This document shows positions 2,784-22,811 of a stretch of DNA of 22,811 nt, one piece after another. Source of the stretch: a virus; IMG/VR virus record IMGVR_UViG_3300006750_000092, positions 1-22,811 of that record, one strand, 5' to 3'. The stretch's first letter is position 1. Every line of letters starts with the position of its first letter. The position numbers and the translations under genes are program-made. Under the pieces are notes generated by a model. The model was not told the origin of the DNA, did not search any database, and worked only from the letters and a program-made list of their open reading frames with translations.

Positions 2784-4652
2784 ATGAATGAAGCAAGCGA
2801 ACTAATGCGAGATATAACTCAATGGCTGAAATATGCTAAATATATTCCTGAATTAAACAGGAGAGAAACAAGAGAAGAAACAATAAACAGAAATCTAAAT
2901 ATGCATTTAAAATCATTTAGTCATTTGGATTCAGATACCCAAACCGAAATAAAGGACGTTTACAAAAAGTATGTCCTAACAGGTAAGGTATTACCATCAA
3001 TGCGCTCCATGCAATATGCAGGTAAGCCTATTGAAATAGCACCTAACAGTATCTATAACTGTGCTTACTTGCCTATAGATTCAGTTGAATGCTTTCATGA
3101 AGTATTCTTTTTGTTATTAAATGGAACAGGTGTAGGATTTTCTGTTCAAAACCACCATGTAATTTCCTTGCCTGAAATAAGGCAACCAAACAAATCAAGG
3201 ACTAGAAAAATAGTAATCCAAGATTCAATAGTAGGATGGGCAGACGCAATTAAAGAATTGTTTCGTTCATATACAGGTGAATTAACTCAAACTCCCAGAT
3301 TCATTTATGATGACATCAGGCCAATAGGCACACCCTTAAAAACAAGGGGTGGAAAAGCCCCCGGCCCTCAACCATTGAGAAAATGTATTGTTATTATAGA
3401 AGGCATACTCCAACAAATGGCAGATGGCGACCAACTAACACCATTACAATGTCATGACATCATTTGTCACATGGCGGAGGCTGTTACCGCAGGTGGTAAT
3501 AGAAGGGCAGCATTAATTTCATTGTTTAGTGCTAATAATGCTGAAATGAAAACCTGCAAGGCAGGTAAATTTTGGGACACAAATCCTCAAAGACAACGAG
3601 CAAATAATTCTGCCGTGATTCTACGAAGTAAAGTAACAAAAGAATTTTTCAATTCTCTATGGAAAGACATTGAAAATTCAGGAACAGGAGAACCCGGTGT
3701 GTATTTTACTCACGATAAAGATTGGGGAACTAATCCCTGTTGTGAAATTGCATTACGTCCTTATCAGTTCTGTAATCTAACAGAAATTAATGCTTCAACA
3801 ATCAAGAATGATGAGGATTTGTTTACTAGAGTCGAAGCAGCCACAATCCTCGGAACACTACAAGCAACATATACTGACTTTTATTATCTAAGAGATATAT
3901 GGAGAACAACCACTGAAAAGGATGCATTACTAGGAGTGTCTATGACAGGTATAGCATCTACCAAGATGGATTCATTAGATGTAACAGGAGCAGCACATTT
4001 GGCTAAAAAGGTTAATAAAGAATGGGCATCTCGATTAGGGATAAATACTGCGGCAAGAGTAACTTGTGTGAAACCTTCGGGTACTTCATCTCTAATACTA
4101 GGAACTTCATCTGGAATCCATGCTTGGCATTCTAAATACTACATTAGAAGAATTAGAATAAGTAAGGATGAGTTAATTTATAATTATTTGTTTATGAATC
4201 ACCCTGAATTGGTAGCAGATGAACTAGAGAATCCTAATGGAGCAGTAATCGAAATACCACAAGTAGCGCCAACAAATGCTTTAACTTCTGAATCAGAAGA
4301 CTCCTTTGCATTCTTAGAGAGACTTAAGAATATGACAATTAGATGGGTTAATCCCGGTCACAATGATGGTCAAAACACACATAATATTTCCGCAACTGTT
4401 TATATTAAAGAACATGAGTGGGATGAAATTGGCGAATGGATGTGGCTAAATAGACATTATTATAATGGGTTGTCATGCTACCCTGAATCATCATGGTATG
4501 CACAAGCCCCCTTTGAAAGATGTGATAAGATAACATATGAAAAAATGATGTCTTCTCTTAGAAAGATAGATTTAACACAAATCAAAGAGTTTGAAGATAA
4601 TACTTCGTTTAGTGCTGAAGCCGCCTGTGGCGGTGGTGCTTGTGAAATATAG
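2784..4652 (+). CDS. nrdJ: Class II (adenosylcobalamin-dependent) ribonucleotide reductase
   Basis: This enzyme reduces ribonucleotides to deoxyribonucleotides with a B12-generated thiyl radical. At 622 residues it is somewhat shorter than the monomeric Lactobacillus-type enzyme (about 740). Seen: PSMRSMQYAG at 71-80; Cys93 in YNCAYLP, the first redox cysteine; NPCCEI at 317-322 with the expected thiyl Cys319 and Glu321; Cys330 in FCNL, the second redox cysteine; a KPSGTSSLILG loop; and the C-terminal pair Cys615/Cys620 in CGGGACEI, which recharges the active site. All expected catalytic cysteines are present. The usual Gly after the radical cysteine is replaced by Cys320. It would feed dNTPs to the viral replisome encoded downstream. 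Confidence 0.93.
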   Translation: MNEASELMRDITQWLKYAKYIPELNRRETREETINRNLNMHLKSFSHLDSDTQTEIKDVYKKYVLTGKVLPSMRSMQYAGKPIEIAPNSIYNCAYLPIDSVECFHEVFFLLLNGTGVGFSVQNHHVISLPEIRQPNKSRTRKIVIQDSIVGWADAIKELFRSYTGELTQTPRFIYDDIRPIGTPLKTRGGKAPGPQPLRKCIVIIEGILQQMADGDQLTPLQCHDIICHMAEAVTAGGNRRAALISLFSANNAEMKTCKAGKFWDTNPQRQRANNSAVILRSKVTKEFFNSLWKDIENSGTGEPGVYFTHDKDWGTNPCCEIALRPYQFCNLTEINASTIKNDEDLFTRVEAATILGTLQATYTDFYYLRDIWRTTTEKDALLGVSMTGIASTKMDSLDVTGAAHLAKKVNKEWASRLGINTAARVTCVKPSGTSSLILGTSSGIHAWHSKYYIRRIRISKDELIYNYLFMNHPELVADELENPNGAVIEIPQVAPTNALTSESEDSFAFLERLKNMTIRWVNPGHNDGQNTHNISATVYIKEHEWDEIGEWMWLNRHYYNGLSCYPESSWYAQAPFERCDKITYEKMMSSLRKIDLTQIKEFEDNTSFSAEAACGGGACEI

Positions 4653-7180: not shown

Positions 7181-8034
7181 GATGTCTTAATTGTAATAGT
7201 GCTAATCATACTATGAGTAATCAATTAGATGAATGGGTTTGTGATGATTGTGGATTTGTAATAGTTCTTAAAATAGAGGAAAACGTAACATTTAATTATA
7301 ATCCTAATGCTACTAATAGAGACAAACCCTATGTGTATAATATGTCATTAGAATGTAATATGATTCTATCAAGATTTATTCATAGAATAGATTTTAATAC
7401 TGCTAGGGATAAAACAATTCATTACCTTGATTTGTTAGAAAACGATTCTAAGTTTAAGGAATTTACAATGCCTCGCGCTGCCTACAAAGTAAAATTTATT
7501 AAAAATAAACCAATAACACAAGATAAAACTATGTTAGCAGCAGCAGTTGTTTTTCTTGTATTGAAAGAACAAAACGTAGCAATAAGACTCACTGATATGG
7601 CTTTAGCAGAAGGATTACCTCCTACTAGATTAAGTAAATTAACCAAAAAAATTGCTAGACTAATAGAAAAGCCATACTTACTTACAAGTATTCCTATTGA
7701 AGCATGGTTAGATAGAATAAATCATTATGCAAATCAAGAGTTGAAAGAGGAATGTCTTCTCTTTTATTACAAAGTTCAAGAAATATTTAATGCTAAGCAA
7801 TTAACTTTTACATTGAAAGATTTGAAAGCAGTTATTTGGCTTCATGGTCAAGTAAGCCCACAATTCACAATATATTGGAAAGACATTAAACATTCCTTTG
7901 GCGAACCAAAAAGTCTAAAAAATGCCGGTGGTTTTACTGGCGCAAAAAGAGTATTAAGTGCGTTAAATCTTACCAAAGAGCAAATTAAACAATTAACTAT
8001 GGATGAATTGATTGGAGGAATAAGATATGAATAG
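7177..8034 (+). CDS. tfb: Transcription factor B (TFIIB-like)
   Basis: Archaeal TFB bridges TBP on the promoter to RNA polymerase. The 285-residue protein starts with the TFB zinc ribbon (Cys3-x2-Cys6, Cys22-x2-Cys25-Gly) and a short B-finger-like linker. Two helical repeats of cyclin-box type follow, at about 75-165 (containing the PITQDKTMLAAAVVFLVL helix and RLTDMALAEGL) and about 170-275. The length fits a lean TFB (usually about 300). A viral copy could redirect the host polymerase to viral promoters. It also ties the virus to an archaeal host. The stop overlaps the next gene's start by eight bases. Confidence 0.88.
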   Translation: MRCLNCNSANHTMSNQLDEWVCDDCGFVIVLKIEENVTFNYNPNATNRDKPYVYNMSLECNMILSRFIHRIDFNTARDKTIHYLDLLENDSKFKEFTMPRAAYKVKFIKNKPITQDKTMLAAAVVFLVLKEQNVAIRLTDMALAEGLPPTRLSKLTKKIARLIEKPYLLTSIPIEAWLDRINHYANQELKEECLLFYYKVQEIFNAKQLTFTLKDLKAVIWLHGQVSPQFTIYWKDIKHSFGEPKSLKNAGGFTGAKRVLSALNLTKEQIKQLTMDELIGGIRYE

Positions 8035-8605
8035 AAAAGTATTAATAATAGGAGTAGGTGGAATAGGTAGTTATCTATTTCCATTATTAGATAAAACTAG
8101 TAGTTATGATATTACTGTTGCAGACCCCGATGTAGTGGAGAATAAGAATATTTCATATCAAAATTTTTATGTAGATGATGTGAGTAACCACAAGGTTACT
8201 TCACTTAAATCTATGAATGGTTATAGTAGTAGTAGATATCCTATTCTAACAGATAAACAAATTATGGACTATGATTTAGTAGTTTGCTGTGCAGACAATC
8301 TAGACGTTAGAAGACTATTGTATCGTCAAGGATTTCAAGACGGTGCTAAGATTAAATGGTTAGACTTAAGGGCGCAAGGTAGGAATGGAGCGTTAATCAG
8401 TTATCTTACTGACCCTAAATTTAGTGATATGTTCCTACAAGGCCCAGAAGGTTCTTTTTCGTGTCAAGGAGAAACCTTTAATGAAACAAATGACACAAAA
8501 CAATTACATTTCACCCATGTAGCAATCGCTGGCTATGGCGCACAATGGATACAACGATGGTTTAATGGGGAAGAAGTAAAAGATAAAATGGTGATAAATA
8601 TATGA
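8027..8605 (+). CDS. ThiF/MoeB/E1-like adenylating enzyme
   Basis: E1-like enzymes bind ATP and adenylate the C-terminal glycine of ubiquitin-like proteins. The 192-residue product begins with a Rossmann strand and GVGGIGS (9-15). It continues with VADPDVVENKNISYQ (31-45), equivalent to D-x-D-x-V-E-x-x-N-L-x-R-Q but with the Arg changed to Tyr. Lys56 and CCADN (87-91, in the DxVVxCxDNxxxR stretch) follow. Cys146 in FSCQGE is a candidate catalytic cysteine. The CxxC zinc sites of MoeB/ThiF are absent, and the protein is shorter than the usual 240 residues. A GGAGG site precedes the ATG. The neighbouring JAMM gene and the GGC-ending protein at 2118 supply a plausible partner and substrate. Confidence 0.85.
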   Translation: MNRKVLIIGVGGIGSYLFPLLDKTSSYDITVADPDVVENKNISYQNFYVDDVSNHKVTSLKSMNGYSSSRYPILTDKQIMDYDLVVCCADNLDVRRLLYRQGFQDGAKIKWLDLRAQGRNGALISYLTDPKFSDMFLQGPEGSFSCQGETFNETNDTKQLHFTHVAIAGYGAQWIQRWFNGEEVKDKMVINI

Positions 8606-9282
8606 GTAAAAGAAAGAAAAATATGGGTCCACGAAAGTGGACAATAGCACAAAAAGACTATTTAAGAAGTCTTTTGAATGAAACGGATGCAAATGGGAAC
8701 CCCTTTCCACGACAAGTGGTGGTTGTATTCTTGAATAAAAAGTTCCCAACTAGGCCTAGAACCCTTAAAGCAGTAGAGGCTATGACAAAAATATTGAGGG
8801 ATGAAACCAAAGCAGAAGAACTTGCTGAAAAGATAGTAAGAGTTAAGCCTAAACCTAAGCCCAAAACAGTTGAGGTTGAGACTATTGTATCGTCAAAGAT
8901 AACGCCCAAAAAAGCAAAGAAAGGTAGGGGCCATCATGTTGATACGACTAACTCTGGTAAGGGGTGGACAACTACAGACGATAGGTTCTTAGTAGAGAAT
9001 TGGTCTGCTATTGATAGTGTGCGTGAAAAGGTAGCAAACCATTTGGGTAGAACAACATTAGGATGTCAAGCAAGACTATGGAAGGTTAAGAAAAACACCG
9101 ACTATTACCACACATTAGTAGGCAATGTGAATGTAACTATTCACAATACTATTCCCGGTAAGCCCGGATTGTTGGAAAAACTATTGACCTACCTAATTAA
9201 TAGAAGGGCCAACAAGCAAGCAAAGAAGGTTGAAAAGTTACAACAACAACTAGCAGAGATGAGTGTTAAATATGAAAACTGA
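8602..9282 (+). CDS. Myb/SANT-like DNA-binding protein
   Basis: The 226-residue basic protein has two Trp-led helix-turn-helix-like segments: RKWTIAQKDYL near residue 11, and KGWTTTDDRFLVENW followed by VANHLGRTTLGCQARLWK around 120-160. These match the tryptophan spacing and final recognition helix of Myb/SANT repeats seen in phage and archaeal DNA-binding proteins. A Pro/Lys linker (KPKPKPK) separates them, and the C-terminus (195-225) is a Lys/Gln coiled coil. It sits between E1-like and JAMM genes, with ATGA coupling upstream. A transcription regulator or genome-architecture protein is the likely role. Confidence 0.65.
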   Translation: MSKRKKNMGPRKWTIAQKDYLRSLLNETDANGNPFPRQVVVVFLNKKFPTRPRTLKAVEAMTKILRDETKAEELAEKIVRVKPKPKPKTVEVETIVSSKITPKKAKKGRGHHVDTTNSGKGWTTTDDRFLVENWSAIDSVREKVANHLGRTTLGCQARLWKVKKNTDYYHTLVGNVNVTIHNTIPGKPGLLEKLLTYLINRRANKQAKKVEKLQQQLAEMSVKYEN

Positions 9283-9874
9283 AATAGAAGATTGGAAAGA
9301 ACAAATTGTTCGCTCTTATGAAAATGAGAGCGTTCAATCCTTCCATGATTGTATATGGGAAATGTCTATAAAGGCATTTGACATACCACGCGAGGTTCAA
9401 GTTGTTATTGATAAGACTAATACATTGTTTATCAGTGTTGGTAGCCCCGGTTTTGTATCCTTTGATGGACAAGAGAGCGCATTGAATGGCATGAAACTTC
9501 CTTTGAAGGAATGGATTCATACTCATCCTTTTGGTCAAGCCTACTTTAGTAGCACAGATAAAAGCACCGTTGCTGTATGGAATACAAAGTTAGATTCAGC
9601 AACAGTATTAGGTAATGGAGAAAAAGCACATTGGTATTTTAGGTGTGGTCCCGATGGGAGCCATGTAATGACTAAGGAAGTGTTTGACTGGCAATCTTCA
9701 GATTATAATTTCTATGAAAATACTACTGATGTATTTTTGGATGTTTCTAAAGTCGTTATGGCAGGACTAACTGATTATCAAAAGTATAAGAAAGCAAAGA
9801 AAGAATATAAGAAAGCAAAGGAAAAATTTCGTAGTAGTTATTGGTTGAATGAGGATAAAGGTGATGAAGAATGA
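9272..9874 (+). CDS. JAMM/MPN+ metallopeptidase
   Basis: JAMM enzymes use zinc to cut after the Gly-Gly of ubiquitin-like proteins. ATG at 9272 is chosen over GTG at 9263; both overlap the previous gene. The JAMM signature is EWIHTHPFG...SSTD: His83, His85, Pro86, Ser93 and Asp96, one residue tighter than the standard H-x-H-P-x7-S-x2-D. The supporting Glu is probably Glu19 or Glu30, not certain. The domain covers about 1-140; the last 30 residues are a Lys/Tyr-rich helix (YKKAKKEYKKAKEK). The protein could mature the GGC-ending modifier from 2118 and remove it from targets. The tail's DNA is repeated at 17261. Confidence 0.8.
   Translation: MKTEIEDWKEQIVRSYENESVQSFHDCIWEMSIKAFDIPREVQVVIDKTNTLFISVGSPGFVSFDGQESALNGMKLPLKEWIHTHPFGQAYFSSTDKSTVAVWNTKLDSATVLGNGEKAHWYFRCGPDGSHVMTKEVFDWQSSDYNFYENTTDVFLDVSKVVMAGLTDYQKYKKAKKEYKKAKEKFRSSYWLNEDKGDEE
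9785..9810 (+). repeat. 26-bp exact direct repeat, copy 1
   Basis: The 26 bases at 9785-9810 are identical to those at 17261-17286, about 7.5 kb away, in the same orientation and reading frame. Here they encode the YKKAKKEY part of the JAMM protein's tail. Confidence 0.8.
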
Positions 9875-17315: not shown

Positions 17316-18551
17316 ATGGAAGAAAAAGTAAGTAAGGAAATTGCTAAGGCTGCAGAAGTCTTAGGATTAGAAATGAATGAAGTAGAAGAAAAGTGGTTGG
17401 ATATATGTGATAAGAATAATCTATCACCAACCGATGAATGGAAACTAGCATTGTCATTATTTAGACAATGGTTTAGTGGTAAGAATGCATATAAGGATGT
17501 ACCCGTTGCTGAAACAGGTGGAAGCAGCAGTTTAATTAAGCAAGCGTTAGGGTTTTTCCTATCTATTGAAGCCGCAAGAGATATGGGTAAGTGGCAAAAT
17601 GATAGGGTTAAAGCCGAATATGATAGAAACCCAGAAGAAGCCTATAATACTGGTAGGGTTGCTATCATAACTAAGACTGATGAGGGCTATTCTGCTAAGA
17701 AAAAGGACAACACAACAGGAGAAGAAAAGACCGCAATTCTAAAGGAGTTGCCAGCAAATAACTTCTCAGTTGACACAGATAAGTGGATTGTACCTTTGGA
17801 TAATATGCCATCTTTTGGTGCAAATAAGAACGTAAACTATGGTAAGCCTTTACCCGCCGAACAATTTAGGAGTGCAGGTGTATTTTTAGGAGATGTTAAT
17901 GGAGAGAATGGAGTATATTTCTTTTCATACAAGGGTGAGGCTTCAAAGACGTTTACCCCAACAACCTTTAAATTAGTGAGTATGAGTGTTATTAGGGATA
18001 GTAATTTCCCTAACAGGATTTATGGCTTTAAGGAAGGGACTTTAGAGAGTTTAAAATACAATGCAGACCTACCAGAAGATAGCCGTAAGGATGAACCAAC
18101 TGTGGTTGAACTTCAAAACTATGCTATGGAACACGCTATGAACCACTATAGCCCATTGTTAGATTTGAATAGGTATCACATGGAATTGCAATCTAAGGAT
18201 GTTAGAGCAGCCGAAAAGTTTGTGATAACTGATGGAACAGTATCTAGTGTCAATATGACCCCTAATAATTTTGGGACTCGTAGGGTAACTATAACAGATA
18301 TTAATTCTGACTTTGACTATGATGGTGGCTCTTGGGCAGGAACAACTTGTTGGGTTCCACCACATATTGATATCAATTTTGGTATTGGTTCAAGTGTTGT
18401 CTTTGTTGGTAGAACATCACAACGCCGAATGGATGATGGTTCATGGGGAGATGTATCACTTAATGTTAGTGGTATGCTATGCACTGAAAACAAAGGTGTT
18501 GTAACTGAACCCTTTGAGTCTGCTGAAGAAGAAGACATTGATTGGTTTTGA
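17316..18551 (+). CDS. Probable single-stranded DNA-binding protein with acidic tail
   Basis: The 411-residue protein has an N-terminal helical region (1-80), a middle alpha/beta region, and a C-terminal beta-rich segment (about 305-395) with strands such as GTVSSVNM, RRVTITDI and SSVVFVGRTS that fits an OB fold. It ends in an acidic tail with an aromatic tip, ESAEEEDIDWF. Such tips are the hallmark of SSB and T7 gp2.5-type proteins, which use them to recruit replication partners. It is followed by a RecA-like ATPase and PCNA, the expected neighbours. The assignment rests on tail, fold pattern and context, not on a clear family match. Confidence 0.55.
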   Translation: MEEKVSKEIAKAAEVLGLEMNEVEEKWLDICDKNNLSPTDEWKLALSLFRQWFSGKNAYKDVPVAETGGSSSLIKQALGFFLSIEAARDMGKWQNDRVKAEYDRNPEEAYNTGRVAIITKTDEGYSAKKKDNTTGEEKTAILKELPANNFSVDTDKWIVPLDNMPSFGANKNVNYGKPLPAEQFRSAGVFLGDVNGENGVYFFSYKGEASKTFTPTTFKLVSMSVIRDSNFPNRIYGFKEGTLESLKYNADLPEDSRKDEPTVVELQNYAMEHAMNHYSPLLDLNRYHMELQSKDVRAAEKFVITDGTVSSVNMTPNNFGTRRVTITDINSDFDYDGGSWAGTTCWVPPHIDINFGIGSSVVFVGRTSQRRMDDGSWGDVSLNVSGMLCTENKGVVTEPFESAEEEDIDWF

Positions 18552-18555
18552 TTAA

Positions 18556-18804
18556 ATGTATGATATAGAAAATGGAGTAATTCATGGTGTTAGTTTTGCA
18601 GTAAAGTTAGAAACTGTAGAATTTTTAACATGGAGTTTAAACGAAGAAACCTCCGAATATTGGGTAAAGTTTCATGTACCCTCTCGCAAGGAAATCAGGA
18701 TTAAAGTAACTGAGAATGCATTAAGAGAAATAGTAAATGAATGGAACTATGGAATGGGAAAGGTAAATTTAGATTTTGGTGATGAAAATGGATTGGACTA
18801 CTGA
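18556..18804 (+). CDS. Hypothetical beta-rich protein
   Basis: The 82-residue product starts four bases after the previous stop with no clear ribosome binding site, and overlaps the next gene by 17 bases. It reads as a small beta sandwich or sheet (SFAVKLETVEFLTW, YWVKFHVPS, EIRIKVTE) with a C-terminal helix and acidic end. No motif is recognised. Its place between the SSB candidate and the RecA-like gene hints at recombination, which is inference. Confidence 0.6.
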   Translation: MYDIENGVIHGVSFAVKLETVEFLTWSLNEETSEYWVKFHVPSRKEIRIKVTENALREIVNEWNYGMGKVNLDFGDENGLDY

Positions 18805-19708
18805 TAAAAAAGGTGACGCTGTAAAAAGCAATGATGAAAATGAAGAAGCGGTTGAGAAAACTTTCTTTCAAATACAAAAAGAAAAGATTCTACAACAAAT
18901 AAAAAATAGATTAGAAAGGGATAGAGCATTTTTGTATTGTTCTGTTACTGGGAATGAAAAAGTAGGTAAAACAGGAATTGTCTTAGATTGTCGAACCGTG
19001 GAAGAGATTGAAAAAGGAATGAAAGTTCTTCTATTAGATTTAGATGATGGGGCAGAAGCAACTTGGGATTCTGGTTGGGATAGAACTGAAGATATTATTA
19101 TCTTCAATCCTTTAGAATTGAAAAGAGATGGTACTCCAGATTGGGATGCCATCTTTAATAATGCTAGAGGATTTGTAGAGTTTGCTAAGGAAATGATTGA
19201 AGAAGGAAATGTTAAGGCTTTTATTCTTGATGGGGTAGATAAGGCTTACGAAGGTTCAAGCGATGTATTGCGTGACCACTTGGTTAAGCAACAACAAAGA
19301 ACAGGAACCATTATTCATGCTTCTGATTCTGTTCATGTTAGTCCATTAGATTGGAAAATAAGGAATAGAATTTATAACCGCTTGTTGGATTTGGTTGGTT
19401 CATTAGAATGCGATAGGTTTATGGTTACTCATATGAAACCTTTGTATGATAATATCAATGTACCTGTGCCTATTGGTGAAACCCCTGATTGGCATAAATC
19501 TACACCCGCTAGATTTAACCAAATGATACATATAAATACTGTAACAAAAGATGGTGTAACAAATCATATTGCTACCCTTAAAGCAAGTAAGACGAATCCC
19601 TCCCTCGTAGGAAAGGAATGGACAATCTTTACTACAAGTGGTCACGATTCAGAAGAAGAAGTGAATGCTTGGTATGGTGTTCTTGAACTACGAGAGGGAA
19701 CTATATGA
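18788..19708 (+). CDS. RecA/Sak4-like recombination ATPase
   Basis: ATG 18788 is preferred, with GGTGA five bases upstream; TTG 18776 and ATG 18782 are alternatives. The 306-residue protein has a Walker A GNEKVGKT (55-62), a KVLLLDLDDG strand after it, and a Walker B VKAFILDGVD at about 140-150. A MVTHMKP strand follows, typical of the small RecA-fold ATPases of phages (Sak4/AAA_24 group). These bind single-stranded DNA and promote annealing or strand exchange. The order SSB candidate - RecA-like - PCNA - PolB supports a role in replication-linked recombination. Confidence 0.75.
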   Translation: MDWTTDKKGDAVKSNDENEEAVEKTFFQIQKEKILQQIKNRLERDRAFLYCSVTGNEKVGKTGIVLDCRTVEEIEKGMKVLLLDLDDGAEATWDSGWDRTEDIIIFNPLELKRDGTPDWDAIFNNARGFVEFAKEMIEEGNVKAFILDGVDKAYEGSSDVLRDHLVKQQQRTGTIIHASDSVHVSPLDWKIRNRIYNRLLDLVGSLECDRFMVTHMKPLYDNINVPVPIGETPDWHKSTPARFNQMIHINTVTKDGVTNHIATLKASKTNPSLVGKEWTIFTTSGHDSEEEVNAWYGVLELREGTI

Positions 19709-19974
19709 GCCATCTTCAAAAAGTTCCATATGGATTATGGAATGATGGGTCTTCAGTCCCCCGTTGTAGTTGCGTAGAATGTGAGAACCATTTAAAAAGG
19801 GCTCCATTAAATAGTCCTGATAAGTGTAACATAACAGATTGTGTTTATCACAAGCCCCGACCTAAAGGGTGGCCCCAATCCACCTGCCAATATTCTTGCT
19901 TTGGTAAGATGGTAAAGGGTCACGAGGATAAGTTTGCTGGTAAAAAATATTCGTGGTCAGAAGAGGAAGTATAA
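19705..19974 (+). CDS. Cys-rich small protein
   Basis: The 89-residue protein carries Cys21-x-Cys23-x2-Cys26, Cys41, Cys46-x2-His49, Cys61 and Cys65, enough for two zinc sites. The spacing does not match a finger I know. It is coupled to the RecA-like gene by ATGA, and its stop is two bases before the PCNA start. The positive centre (HKPRPKGW) suggests nucleic-acid contact. Function unknown. Confidence 0.65.
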   Translation: MSHLQKVPYGLWNDGSSVPRCSCVECENHLKRAPLNSPDKCNITDCVYHKPRPKGWPQSTCQYSCFGKMVKGHEDKFAGKKYSWSEEEV

Positions 19975-19976
19975 TT

Positions 19977-20747
19977 ATGATGAATGTATCTGTAAATTTA
20001 AATGAATTTAAAGATGCAGTTGAGGCAATTTGGCTTAAGGGCAAATATAAGTCCTCAACTGTATCAAAGATAGATGCTATTAGTAATATGGGTGTAGCCT
20101 TTATTAAAACTAATAATACACTAACATTGGCTAATGCTAGTGAATCCATTGCAGCGAGTGTTACAATAAGAGCATCGGCAGAAGATGCTAAAGAAGACAT
20201 GATGGTTATTTTTGACATCGAAAAATTGAATAAATATTTAAAGGTGTTCAAAGAAGACCATCTAATTCTTAGAATTACAGATTCCCAAATGATACTAAAG
20301 GATGAATCGCAAAGGGCTAAGATGCAACTATCTGTTGAACACGGAAGCATCGGAGCAATACTCAAAATTCAAACTTTGAAGATTCCAACAGAAGGTATGC
20401 CTGTATTTGGTACAACTCCATTGGAAGCCAAACTTACTATTCAAGGTGAAGTTTTGGCTAAAGCAATTAAGCATTGTAATATTGTTGGGACCGCTACATT
20501 TAAGATTGATTATAACCAAGAAAGATGTGTAATGTCTTCTGCGAATTTTCATGCAACAGAACATTTTGAATGTGAATTACCTTTAGTAGCCCACGAAGGA
20601 GAATCTGCTACGGTAGAATTTTCTGCGCCTATTGATAAATTTTGTATGAGTGGTGTAATGTATCTCTTTTTGAGAGATGACAAACCCATACTACTTATTG
20701 GGCCTAATAGAAAATTAATTGTAGCCCCATATATTAGGGTGAGATAA
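19977..20747 (+). CDS. pcn: PCNA sliding clamp
   Basis: PCNA encircles DNA and tethers the polymerase and ligase. ATG 19977 follows GAGGAAG by seven bases (ATG 19980 is equally possible); the frame upstream to 19953 has no support. The 256-residue length is normal (about 245-260). The pattern of two similar alpha/beta halves is visible: SVNLNEFKDAVEAI at the start, FDIEKLNKYLKVF near 80, the interdomain LRITDSQMIL, AEGLAKAI-like VLAKAIKHCNIV in the second half, and a C-terminal KPILLIGPNRKLIVAPYI replacing the usual Y-x-LAPR ending. Sequence is divergent from host PCNA. It pairs with the RFC gene (15818) and the next gene, PolB. Confidence 0.82.
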   Translation: MMNVSVNLNEFKDAVEAIWLKGKYKSSTVSKIDAISNMGVAFIKTNNTLTLANASESIAASVTIRASAEDAKEDMMVIFDIEKLNKYLKVFKEDHLILRITDSQMILKDESQRAKMQLSVEHGSIGAILKIQTLKIPTEGMPVFGTTPLEAKLTIQGEVLAKAIKHCNIVGTATFKIDYNQERCVMSSANFHATEHFECELPLVAHEGESATVEFSAPIDKFCMSGVMYLFLRDDKPILLIGPNRKLIVAPYIRVR

Positions 20748-22402
20748 TGATAATCAGTGCAATAGATAAAGAAAATATGTTTGCTCTCAGATGGAGGGAA
20801 GAAGGTGAAAGAAAAGAAACCACCATTCCGTATTTGAAGGCCCGTCCTTATTTTTTCATTGTTGGTGATGCTCCTGAAAAGAATCGCGTTTATATTAACG
20901 AACATGGAGTAAGGCTTCGCGTAGACATATACTATGAAACAAATAAAAACTGGGTATCTCTTGATGGAAGAGAATTAAAAAAGGTTATGTGGAACCCACC
21001 AAAACCCGGCTACGCTAGGATGATTAGAAAAGAATGGGAAGAAACTTTTGAAGCAGATGTACCTTTTCATTACCGCTACGCAGTAGATAACCTAACTGAA
21101 ATACCCGAATACGAATTAAGAAAATGGTATTGGGATTTGGAATGGCAACAAGGCGGAAAACATAATGGTGCAATTACCTGTATGTCGTTTTATGATTCCT
21201 TCAATAAGAGAAGTCGTATTTTGTATTGGATTCCTAAAGGTTCTGGAATTAAAAGAAATTTAATTGGACAAGGTTTTTTCACAGAAAAAGAAATGTTAGA
21301 AAGTTTCATGACTATTTTAGAAACTGAAGACCCTGATATGTTAATCTCTTGGTTCGGTTCTAAGTTCGATTTACCTAAACTAATTGAGAGGCTTCACGCT
21401 AACGGGTTGGACCCCCGAAAACTTTCTCCCTATAATGATGTGAAGGGAGTTTATTTTTCTGATGGGATAAAACTTTCAAAGGCAGCACAAGGCTACAACC
21501 CCGTTGAACAACCAGTTAGGGGAAGAATTTTACTTAACCTTGACCTAGCATTTGAGCGTCAATGGAATGATGCACAACGAGGGACACTACCTTCTATGGC
21601 ATTAGACTATATTGCAGAAATTGTCTTAGGTGAGAAGAAATTAGTGAGCGAAAAATTTCCTGATAAGAATGAGTTTTTCGCTAGAGCATGGTTAGAAGAC
21701 ACAAAACATTATCTTGACTATGCCGTAAAGGACGTTGATTTACTTAGGAGAATAGACGAAAAAAACTATACTTCAGAAGCAATAGTTGCTCTACAAAGAT
21801 TAATAGTTGCGCCATTTGATGCTTGTTTTTATGCGAGTAATATGGGTAGTATTTATTTCATGAGAAACGCTACATGGAAAGCACCAACAGGAATACAAGG
21901 CAAGAAAATTTCTTATAGAGGGGCTTTAATTTATGACCCCTCCATTGAAGGAACAAATGGACTACACGAAAATGTAGCAGCATTTGATTTTGCTGGACTA
22001 TACCCTTCTATAACTATTGCTCTCAATATTTCATGGGAAACAAAAAGTTTAGAGCCAACGGATTTTGCTGTGAACATTGCTACTCCAAGAGATTTAAGTG
22101 AAGAAGAAGATTTAGATTGGCGTTATTATAAGACAGATAAACTTGGAACTCTACCTAAAGCATTATTGGAATTAAAAGTATTGCGTGAGTCTTACAAAGA
22201 AAAAATGAAGGCCGCAGAAACCAAAGAAGAGTATGCCAAATGGTATAATAATCAAATGGCTGTCAAAAGATTAATGGCTTCTTTCTACGGCATTGTTGCA
22301 TATCAGGGCTTTGGATGGGCTGATATTGATTTGGCCGCAAGTATTACCGCAGGTGCAAGAAAGGCAATTAGAATGGCAGCATTCAAGGTGATGGAATTAT
22401 GA
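20747..22402 (+). CDS. polB: Family B DNA polymerase, N-terminal part (split before motif C)
   Basis: The 551-residue protein carries the 3'-5' exonuclease (ExoI WDLEW with Asp130/Glu132; ExoII WFGSKFD with Asp208; ExoIII YAVKD with Tyr325 and Asp329). It also has polymerase motif A DFAGLYPSI (Asp414) and motif B KRLMASFYG (507-515, with Ala in place of the usual Asn). It then stops after the helix RKAIRMAAFKVMEL. The YGDTDS motif C with the second catalytic aspartates and the whole thumb (normally 200 or more further residues) are missing. A complete enzyme would need a second fragment encoded downstream. The stop is in ATGA overlap with the repeat-bearing frame, so the break looks natural, not a sequencing slip. 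Confidence 0.88.
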   Translation: MIISAIDKENMFALRWREEGERKETTIPYLKARPYFFIVGDAPEKNRVYINEHGVRLRVDIYYETNKNWVSLDGRELKKVMWNPPKPGYARMIRKEWEETFEADVPFHYRYAVDNLTEIPEYELRKWYWDLEWQQGGKHNGAITCMSFYDSFNKRSRILYWIPKGSGIKRNLIGQGFFTEKEMLESFMTILETEDPDMLISWFGSKFDLPKLIERLHANGLDPRKLSPYNDVKGVYFSDGIKLSKAAQGYNPVEQPVRGRILLNLDLAFERQWNDAQRGTLPSMALDYIAEIVLGEKKLVSEKFPDKNEFFARAWLEDTKHYLDYAVKDVDLLRRIDEKNYTSEAIVALQRLIVAPFDACFYASNMGSIYFMRNATWKAPTGIQGKKISYRGALIYDPSIEGTNGLHENVAAFDFAGLYPSITIALNISWETKSLEPTDFAVNIATPRDLSEEEDLDWRYYKTDKLGTLPKALLELKVLRESYKEKMKAAETKEEYAKWYNNQMAVKRLMASFYGIVAYQGFGWADIDLAASITAGARKAIRMAAFKVMEL

Positions 22403-22811
22403 ACGAAAAGGAAAATCGCCATCTGATAGAATTGTCAGAATTATTAATGACAAAAATTAAGAATAAAGAAATTACTATTTGTGAAACTTGTGACTCCTTT
22501 TTTGAGTATGTTCCTCAAAAGGAATATTGTGATGATTGTAGAAGATATACGCGCAAGTATTACGAAGAGAATCGCGAGAAGATAAATGCGCGAAGACGCA
22601 AGCATCGCAAAGAGAACCGCGAGAAGATAAATGCGCGAAGACGCAAATTCCGCGAAGAGAATCTTGAGAAGATAAAAGCGAAAGACCGCAAGTATTACGA
22701 AGAGAATCGTGAGAAGATAAATGCGAAACAACGCAAGTATTACGAAAAGAATCGTGAAAAAATAAAAGCGAAACGACGCAAGCATCGCAAAGAGAACCGC
22801 GAGAAGATAAA
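22399..22811 (+). CDS. Zinc-motif protein with 15-residue tandem repeats, 3' partial
   Basis: The frame begins in the PolB stop and is still open at the window end. A short helix is followed by Cys28-x2-Cys31 and Cys44-x2-Cys47, a zinc site. From residue 52 there are nearly six copies of a 15-residue unit of the form RKYYEENREKINARR, highly basic and helical. I recall the combination of such Tyr/Asn/Arg-Glu-Lys repeats with a CxxC pair from HNH-type or free-standing homing endonucleases in phages and giant viruses. The position, interrupting PolB before motif C, suits a mobile endonuclease, but the nuclease domain itself would lie beyond the window. Confidence 0.65.
   Translation, partial: MNEKENRHLIELSELLMTKIKNKEITICETCDSFFEYVPQKEYCDDCRRYTRKYYEENREKINARRRKHRKENREKINARRRKFREENLEKIKAKDRKYYEENREKINAKQRKYYEKNREKIKAKRRKHRKENREKI
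22552..22811 (+). repeat. 45-bp in-frame tandem repeats
   Basis: Units start at 22552, 22597, 22642, 22687, 22732 and 22777 (the last cut by the window end). Each is 45 bases (15 codons) with GCG/CGC/CGA-rich ends, richer in GC than the surrounding DNA. Units 1, 4 and 5 read RKYYE..., units 2 and 6 RKHRKE..., unit 3 RKFRE.... The near identity of units 2 and 6 points to recent unequal exchange. There are no spacers, so it is not a CRISPR array. Confidence 0.85.

Follow-up and report, generated by a model that had tools for sequence, protein, structure and literature searches.

To our knowledge, replicative family B DNA polymerases (PolB) encoded in two pieces are otherwise known in a single archaeon and a small number of T4-like phages. 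Here we describe a PolB of this kind in IMG/VR record IMGVR_UViG_3300006750_000092, an uncultured virus contig whose whole length of 22,811 bases was analysed (hereafter the window), and in its relatives, in which the gene is divided before catalytic motif C into a first half, PolB-N, and a second half, PolB-C, with small cargo genes in the gap of most loci. Among described systems, Methanothermobacter thermautotrophicus has a PolB made of two polypeptides, as stated in a review (PMC7776575). This is likewise a two-polypeptide archaeal family B polymerase but a cellular one, and the likeness concerns its organization. In Aeromonas phage 25 (and in 44RR), a T4-type family B polymerase is encoded by two genes, and a review (PMC2988022) reports that gp43A and gp43B of phage 25 co-purify and are active. 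A homing endonuclease gene lies between 43A and 43B of phage 25 (NC_008208), and the annotation places a group IA2 intron within 43B (L320:1-2957).

A close precedent is found in the International Committee on Taxonomy of Viruses (ICTV) profile of the Aoguangviridae (PMC10768690), where a figure legend labels PolB-NTD and PolB-CTD in Poseidoniales virus YSH_150918 (Magrovirales), and the split is therefore already in print. YSH_150918 shares with the window a PolB in N- and C-terminal parts and the same replication gene set. However, the profile gives the label only and does not discuss the split site, its fixation, the cargo or nuclease inserts. No account of the site, its fixation or the nuclease inserts was found in the literature searched, and an earlier mention is possible; the accessible parts of PMC7544198, PMC10160649, PMC12999244, PMC5628999, PMC5332604 and PMC8651126 do not mention the split. 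Two haloviruses, HCTV-1 and HRTV-26, encode a PolB that is homologous over both halves (20-30% identity), but as one continuous gene with the motif C sequence YGDTDS rather than YGHTDS. In HRTV-26, the stop of this continuous PolB gene and an HNH gene share a single base (L160:3923-6915).

PolB-N of the window is a 551-aa frame on the plus strand (20747..22402) that contains the 3'-5' exonuclease, the palm with motif A and the fingers with motif B. It scored 34.1 bits against the PF03104 exonuclease profile and 64.8 bits against PF00136 (DNA_pol_B), with a cut-off of 23 for each, and matched phrog_262 over profile positions 19-560 of 856. Only positions 38-195 of the 453 in the DNA_pol_B profile are covered and the match ends before motif C, in agreement with an earlier note on the window made from its sequence alone. 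Residues D130, E132, D208, D329, D414 and K507, which we take to belong to the Exo and A/B motifs, were invariant in a 29-row alignment. The 3' seam of the gene (22385..22402, plus strand) has a Shine-Dalgarno-like AAGGTGAT within the last PolB-N codons, followed by an ATGA overlap in which the ATG of the next gene starts at 22399 and overlaps the TGA stop of PolB-N (22400-22402). As the earlier note had also described, this next frame, the cargo gene, begins in the ATGA and carries Cys pairs and basic repeats; the Cys pairs number two (22480-22539, reading CETC...CDDC) and the repeats are 15 aa long. Its 5' part (22399..22811, plus strand) is truncated by the contig end, which is an assembly break inside the repeats and not a biological terminus.

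The second half lies outside the window, on a contig (L002) of the same virus; window positions 17360-22811 match L002 1-5452 at 99.96%. Here the complete repeat gene (L002:5040-5684, 214 aa) is followed by a 75-aa frame and then by PolB-C (L002:5976-6878, about 23335 onward in window numbering), a 300-aa frame with motif C, the remainder of the palm, the thumb and a PIP-like (clamp-binding-like) tail. It opens MKLVYGHTDS and ends QKTLDEWW. A downstream gene with motif C and thumb had been anticipated and is indeed present as a separate gene, although its motif, which lay beyond the sequence available to the note, reads YGHTDS instead of the expected YGDTDS. PolB-C scored 32.8 bits against PF00136 over profile positions 223-381, the part missing from PolB-N, and the DNA_pol_B features are thus distributed over two genes, with exonuclease, palm and fingers in PolB-N and motif C and thumb in PolB-C. 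A contig from a near-identical virus (L083, 99.8% over 4962 nt) independently confirms the PolB-C side. In all 276 loci read, the first Asp of motif C is replaced by His (YGHTDS in 246, YAHTDS in 30). No variation was seen in the 29 rows at the second Asp (D9 of PolB-C), presumably the essential metal ligand.

We placed the boundary by comparison with the unsplit HCTV-1 PolB (...EICEELGYEVIYGDTDS), relative to which PolB-N ends ...AAFKVMEL-stop and PolB-C starts MKLVYGHTDS, with about two residues missing at the split. AlphaFold2 (AF2) models of the two halves adjoin on the same solved structures. The PolB-N model (mean pLDDT 72.3) aligns to RB69 gp43 residues 6-604 and to residues 2-532 of the KOD-type enzyme (Z about 27-31), and the PolB-C model (mean pLDDT 83.5) aligns from residue 615 of RB69 and 534 of the KOD-type enzyme (Z about 13-14; 14.4 to the KOD-type enzyme). 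In profile searches on yeast Pol delta, PolB-N corresponded to 304-676 and PolB-C to 692-823. The pLDDT of the PolB-N model falls below 50 at 382-429 and 514-551, which are predicted to be the stretches where PolB-C would pack; this fits assembly of the halves but does not prove it. The likeness to T4-like phages suggested in the earlier note holds for a polymerase in two genes with an endonuclease between them in phage 25, but not for the position of the break, since 43A ends at RB69 residue 511, about 100 residues before the split described here (604/615).

Four viral scans, each contributing at most its 80 best matches, gave 308 loci, excluding the copy of the window (L001) and the two haloviruses (L160 and L161). 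Both halves were present in 265 of these, and in all 265 the gene was split at the same place and in none was it fused; the other 43 had a single half only and were set aside. In one set of 80 loci, a motif-C frame was found in 65 and was a separate gene in 65/65. A single contig often occurs repeatedly among the 265, and dereplication by shared 4-letter words reduced them to 133. At these 133 loci PolB-C was out of frame with PolB-N in 83 and in frame with at least five intervening stops in 50, a frame relation near thirds, i.e. close to random, as for two separately translated proteins. No frameshift restoring one polymerase was found, and recoding into one product was likewise rejected, given these counts and the whole genes held in the gaps; abutting seams do not, in our reading, look slippery. 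Open frames of 948-987 aa that appeared to run across both halves in four records were also rejected, as the intervening stretch is full of stops and these genes are split too.

In all 24 records of 73-103 kb, PolB matches were confined to the two halves. The relatives accordingly have two complementary, non-overlapping genes and no intact copy, the window itself being a fragment. The halves are inherited jointly: PolB-N and PolB-C distances were correlated (Mantel r 0.881, n = 123), the best of 500 permutations reaching 0.094. A quick tree was built from 124 of the 133 loci and two outgroups, with nine short PolB-N sequences omitted. No unsplit member of the clade was present among the best 80 rows (73-100% identical to L080) of a scan with the haloviruses in the alignment, and a query with the HCTV-1 PolB returned five HCTV-1-like loci, each one continuous match; the absence of unsplit PolB is a statement about the sampled clade. 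A single relative came from a host-genome contig scan, a contig with this PolB-C in a metagenome-assembled genome (MAG) named Maricaulis sp. (L321), which is most likely a mis-binned virus. Based on the sequence evidence, we consider that the split is real and clade-wide and its anatomy well supported, and we predict a two-subunit enzyme.

Across the 133 loci, a Shine-Dalgarno-like PolB-N end was found in 128, compared with 1049 of 6650 same-phase control windows, and a PIP-like tail on PolB-C in 126. A Cys-rich, zinc-ribbon-like insert toward the C-terminal half of PolB-C has two Cys pairs in 93 of the 133 loci and none in 15 (e.g. L069 and L074).

The gap from the PolB-N stop to the PolB-C start ranges from -4 to 1613 nt, with a median of 459 nt, and exceeds 100 nt in 94% of the 265 loci. 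At seven neighbouring junctions the medians were -86 to 58 nt and 0-46% exceeded 100 nt (a comparison that was not dereplicated), and the seam thus carries more cargo than any other junction among the replication genes. Ten of the 265 loci are without cargo and have only an ATGA or TAATG overlap or abutment. The cargo consists of 361 frames of at least 40 aa (shorter ones were uncounted) in 74 families; 72 of these were scanned, and the other two are pieces of a PolB-N that is broken in L157. The DNA of the gap undergoes turnover: among 411 pairs with 65-70% identity in PolB-N, 296 have less than 10% of it in common, and the virus of the window and its sister (L004) have the flanks alone in common. 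PemK/MazF-like and MazG-like proteins are also carried at the seam (L127:4380-4718; L181:3912-4232).

We also found a nuclease gene in the gap of seven of the 133 loci. Four belong to an HNH family (L220, L234, L307 and L178), in which L307 scored 26.9 against the HNH Pfam profile with a cut-off of 27.5 and L220 and L234 were assigned by membership of the L307 family. Two (L239 and L185) carry zinc fingers and basic repeats and form an HNH/endonuclease VII-like family. The seventh (L302) matches T5orf172/MUG113, which we take to belong to the GIY-YIG fold. The calls for L178, L239 and L185 are based on PHROG matches and motifs read by eye. All seven genes come first in the gap and begin no more than 3 nt from the end of the PolB-N stop.

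Comparison of occupied with empty loci revealed three clean nuclease inserts of about 590-660 nt, each at the PolB-N stop: L234 against L080 (flanks 99 and 97% identical), L239 against L237 and L246 (90-95 and 94%), and L307 against L224 (91 and 85%). Alignment of the two sides gives overlaps of 12-36 nt, since the insert terminates in a copy of the Shine-Dalgarno-like PolB-N end; in L234, for example, this copy is AAAGGAGATGGA and is followed by the ATG. The copy is least exact in L307. In three further pairs (L302/L299, L178/L180 and L185/L187) the nuclease is at the same position, the gaps are more divergent and there is no clean insert. The link to homing endonucleases proposed in the earlier note is thus borne out in relatives, which have HNH and GIY-YIG genes between the halves, three of them as inserts with occupied and empty sites. 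It is not borne out for the repeat gene of the window itself, where no nuclease domain was found by Pfam and PHROG profile searches of the complete copy in L002, downstream of the repeats or elsewhere. For this reason the repeat gene, which had been thought possibly mobile, is not itself shown to be so.

The repeat gene nevertheless resembles the seam nucleases in several respects. It occupies the first position after the PolB-N stop, as the nuclease genes do, its repeat part matches phrog_7091, an HNH endonuclease family, and in a single comparison it was 34% identical to the L239 nuclease over 50 residues of basic repeats (E 4e-5). The repeat unit, measured in L002, is 45 nt or 15 aa. In L083 (positions 1-750) the gene encodes 124 aa rather than 214 aa; the difference of 90 aa equals six units with the same frame kept, and this is an in-frame variable repeat. 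From these sequences, the repeat gene, which has no catalytic domain, is most likely related to the DNA-binding portion of a seam nuclease. Common descent of its repeats with those of the L239 nuclease appears likely but is not proven, given how charged and how simple in composition they are.

We therefore favor, with a probability of about 0.86, an obligate two-subunit family B polymerase with a seam that houses translation-coupled mobile cassettes. The break falls in the loop immediately preceding the motif C beta strand. PolB-N contributes the exonuclease and motifs A and B, and PolB-C contributes motif C (YGHTDS), the remainder of the palm, the thumb and the clamp-binding-like tail; as the split precedes a catalytic motif, two chains are needed to make up the active site, and we infer that they fold together into a single one. 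Both halves are probably made from one message by translation coupling, through the Shine-Dalgarno in the end of the upstream gene and the ATGA overlap. The seam acts as a tolerated insertion site in which cassettes, among them free-standing HNH and GIY-YIG nuclease genes, come to lie immediately behind the PolB-N stop. Each cassette appears to bring its own Shine-Dalgarno/ATGA end, whose position is observed and whose purpose may be to keep the next gene coupled.

Several points weigh against this interpretation. Assembly of the halves is a prediction; PolB-N modelled alone folds poorly where PolB-C would pack, which is compatible with assembly but no proof of it, and the alignments have only 29 rows. 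The whole gap of the virus of the window is spanned by L002 only, and L083 differs in repeat number. Remoter unsplit relatives could have been missed by scans giving the best 80 matches each. The search pattern of one scan included the motif C His, and some of the motif-C counts derive from that scan, although the scans with the N-terminal half are independent of motif C. A nuclease signal was detected in only three of the 72 scanned cargo families, the PHROG match of the repeat gene aside, and the repeat gene and the nuclease resemble each other in a charged region of low complexity, a likeness that may have arisen by convergence.

Among the alternatives, the one that fares best concerns the origin of the split. 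A free-standing homing endonuclease may have entered an intact PolB at motif C and later been replaced by the present cargo, as the nuclease genes inserted at this site in relatives and the endonuclease between 43A and 43B of phage 25 would suggest. However, the loci with inserts were already split, so that these nucleases came into a gene that was in two parts by then, a sequence of events that the phage review allows (PMC2988022), and no unsplit allele in the sampled clade shows the ancestral target. We regard an origin by invasion as a tentative idea with somewhat less than even odds. It is also conceivable, although rather unlikely, that the polymerase has two subunits and the seam is an ordinary spot that merely holds small genes, the nucleases being chance passengers unrelated to the split. 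The low share of cargo families with a nuclease signal and the presence of MazG- and PemK/MazF-domain cargo agree with this, but the excess of cargo over the seven neighbouring junctions, the first position of 7/7 nuclease genes and the clean inserts in three near-identical comparisons do not.

A more doubtful proposal still is that the seam is a selected, permanent opening before the catalytic motif, where nuclease cassettes carrying a copy of the seam swap, the resident cassette masks the seam from the nucleases of co-infecting viruses and the length of the cargo sets the PolB-C:PolB-N ratio. If so, the split would serve competition between viruses and polymerase dosage and would be no neutral scar.

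Motif C is a known site of intein insertion in archaeal PolB, and the PolB of N. equitans is rejoined by a split intein. Rejoining of the halves into one polypeptide, by a split intein or by a self-splicing intron carrying the cargo, is very improbable here. PolB-N ends about two residues short and PolB-C begins four residues before motif C, which leaves no room for intein halves; relative to the unsplit HCTV-1 PolB there are no extra residues at the C-terminal end of PolB-N or the N-terminal end of PolB-C. No Rfam family, introns included, matched at the gathering score in any of the eight loci searched (8 of 308, L002 included), and the ten loci without intervening sequence have nothing to excise, only overlap or abutment. 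The intron or intein boundaries that the earlier note had proposed to look for were thus not found in the HCTV-1 comparison or in these eight loci. Finally, a frameshift or assembly break that turned one polymerase into two apparent genes has a negligible chance of being correct: the window does stop in tandem repeats, where assemblies break, and a single contig of this virus bridges the gap, but relatives refute it with 265/265 loci split at the same place, gaps of up to 1613 nt that hold whole genes, and halves out of frame or separated by at least five stops.

The predicted two-subunit polymerase stands in a densely packed replication block on one strand, with ribonucleotide reductase-like, TFB-like, ATP-dependent ligase, replication factor C small subunit (RFC-S), clamp-like and PolB genes. 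The RFC-S and ligase domains scored above the Pfam cut-off, and the TFB and clamp matches were weak and below it. The PCNA-like sliding clamp gene (19953..20747, plus strand), with a weak Rad1-type clamp match below the cut-off, lies immediately 5' of PolB-N and overlaps it, and we propose that its product is the partner of the PIP-like tail of PolB-C. Magroviruses infect marine Poseidoniales archaea and have a replication set of PolB, clamp, RFC-S, ATP ligase and TFB (PMC10768690). The window has this same set, and no major capsid or terminase gene of Magrovirales was seen within the 22.8-kb fragment; the virus is likely a member of Magrovirales, that is, a magrovirus-like archaeal tailed virus.

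Elsewhere in the window, a ribonucleotide reductase-like gene (2784-4652) has a weak barrel-domain match of 34.3 bits. A ThiF/E1-like gene (PF00899, 54.7 bits) and a JAB/JAMM-like gene (HTHP...SSTD; match weak and below cut-off) are close neighbours at 8027-8605 and 9263-9874, possibly a viral pair for the activation and removal of a ubiquitin-like protein.

In conclusion, PolB is split at the loop before a catalytic motif in all sampled viruses of a broad clade that infects marine archaea. In phage 25 the break lies elsewhere; here it is found in 265/265 loci and the cargo is variable. The 133 distinct PolB-N/PolB-C pairs are a natural resource of two-part polymerases, and near-identical genomes with and without an insert make it possible to observe the invasion of a split essential gene by nucleases. 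Phylogenies based on the 'PolB' of these viruses may rest on the N-terminal part alone. Overall, the locus is a natural example of a broken essential gene that has been retained and exploited, its gap being a landing site for changing small genes.

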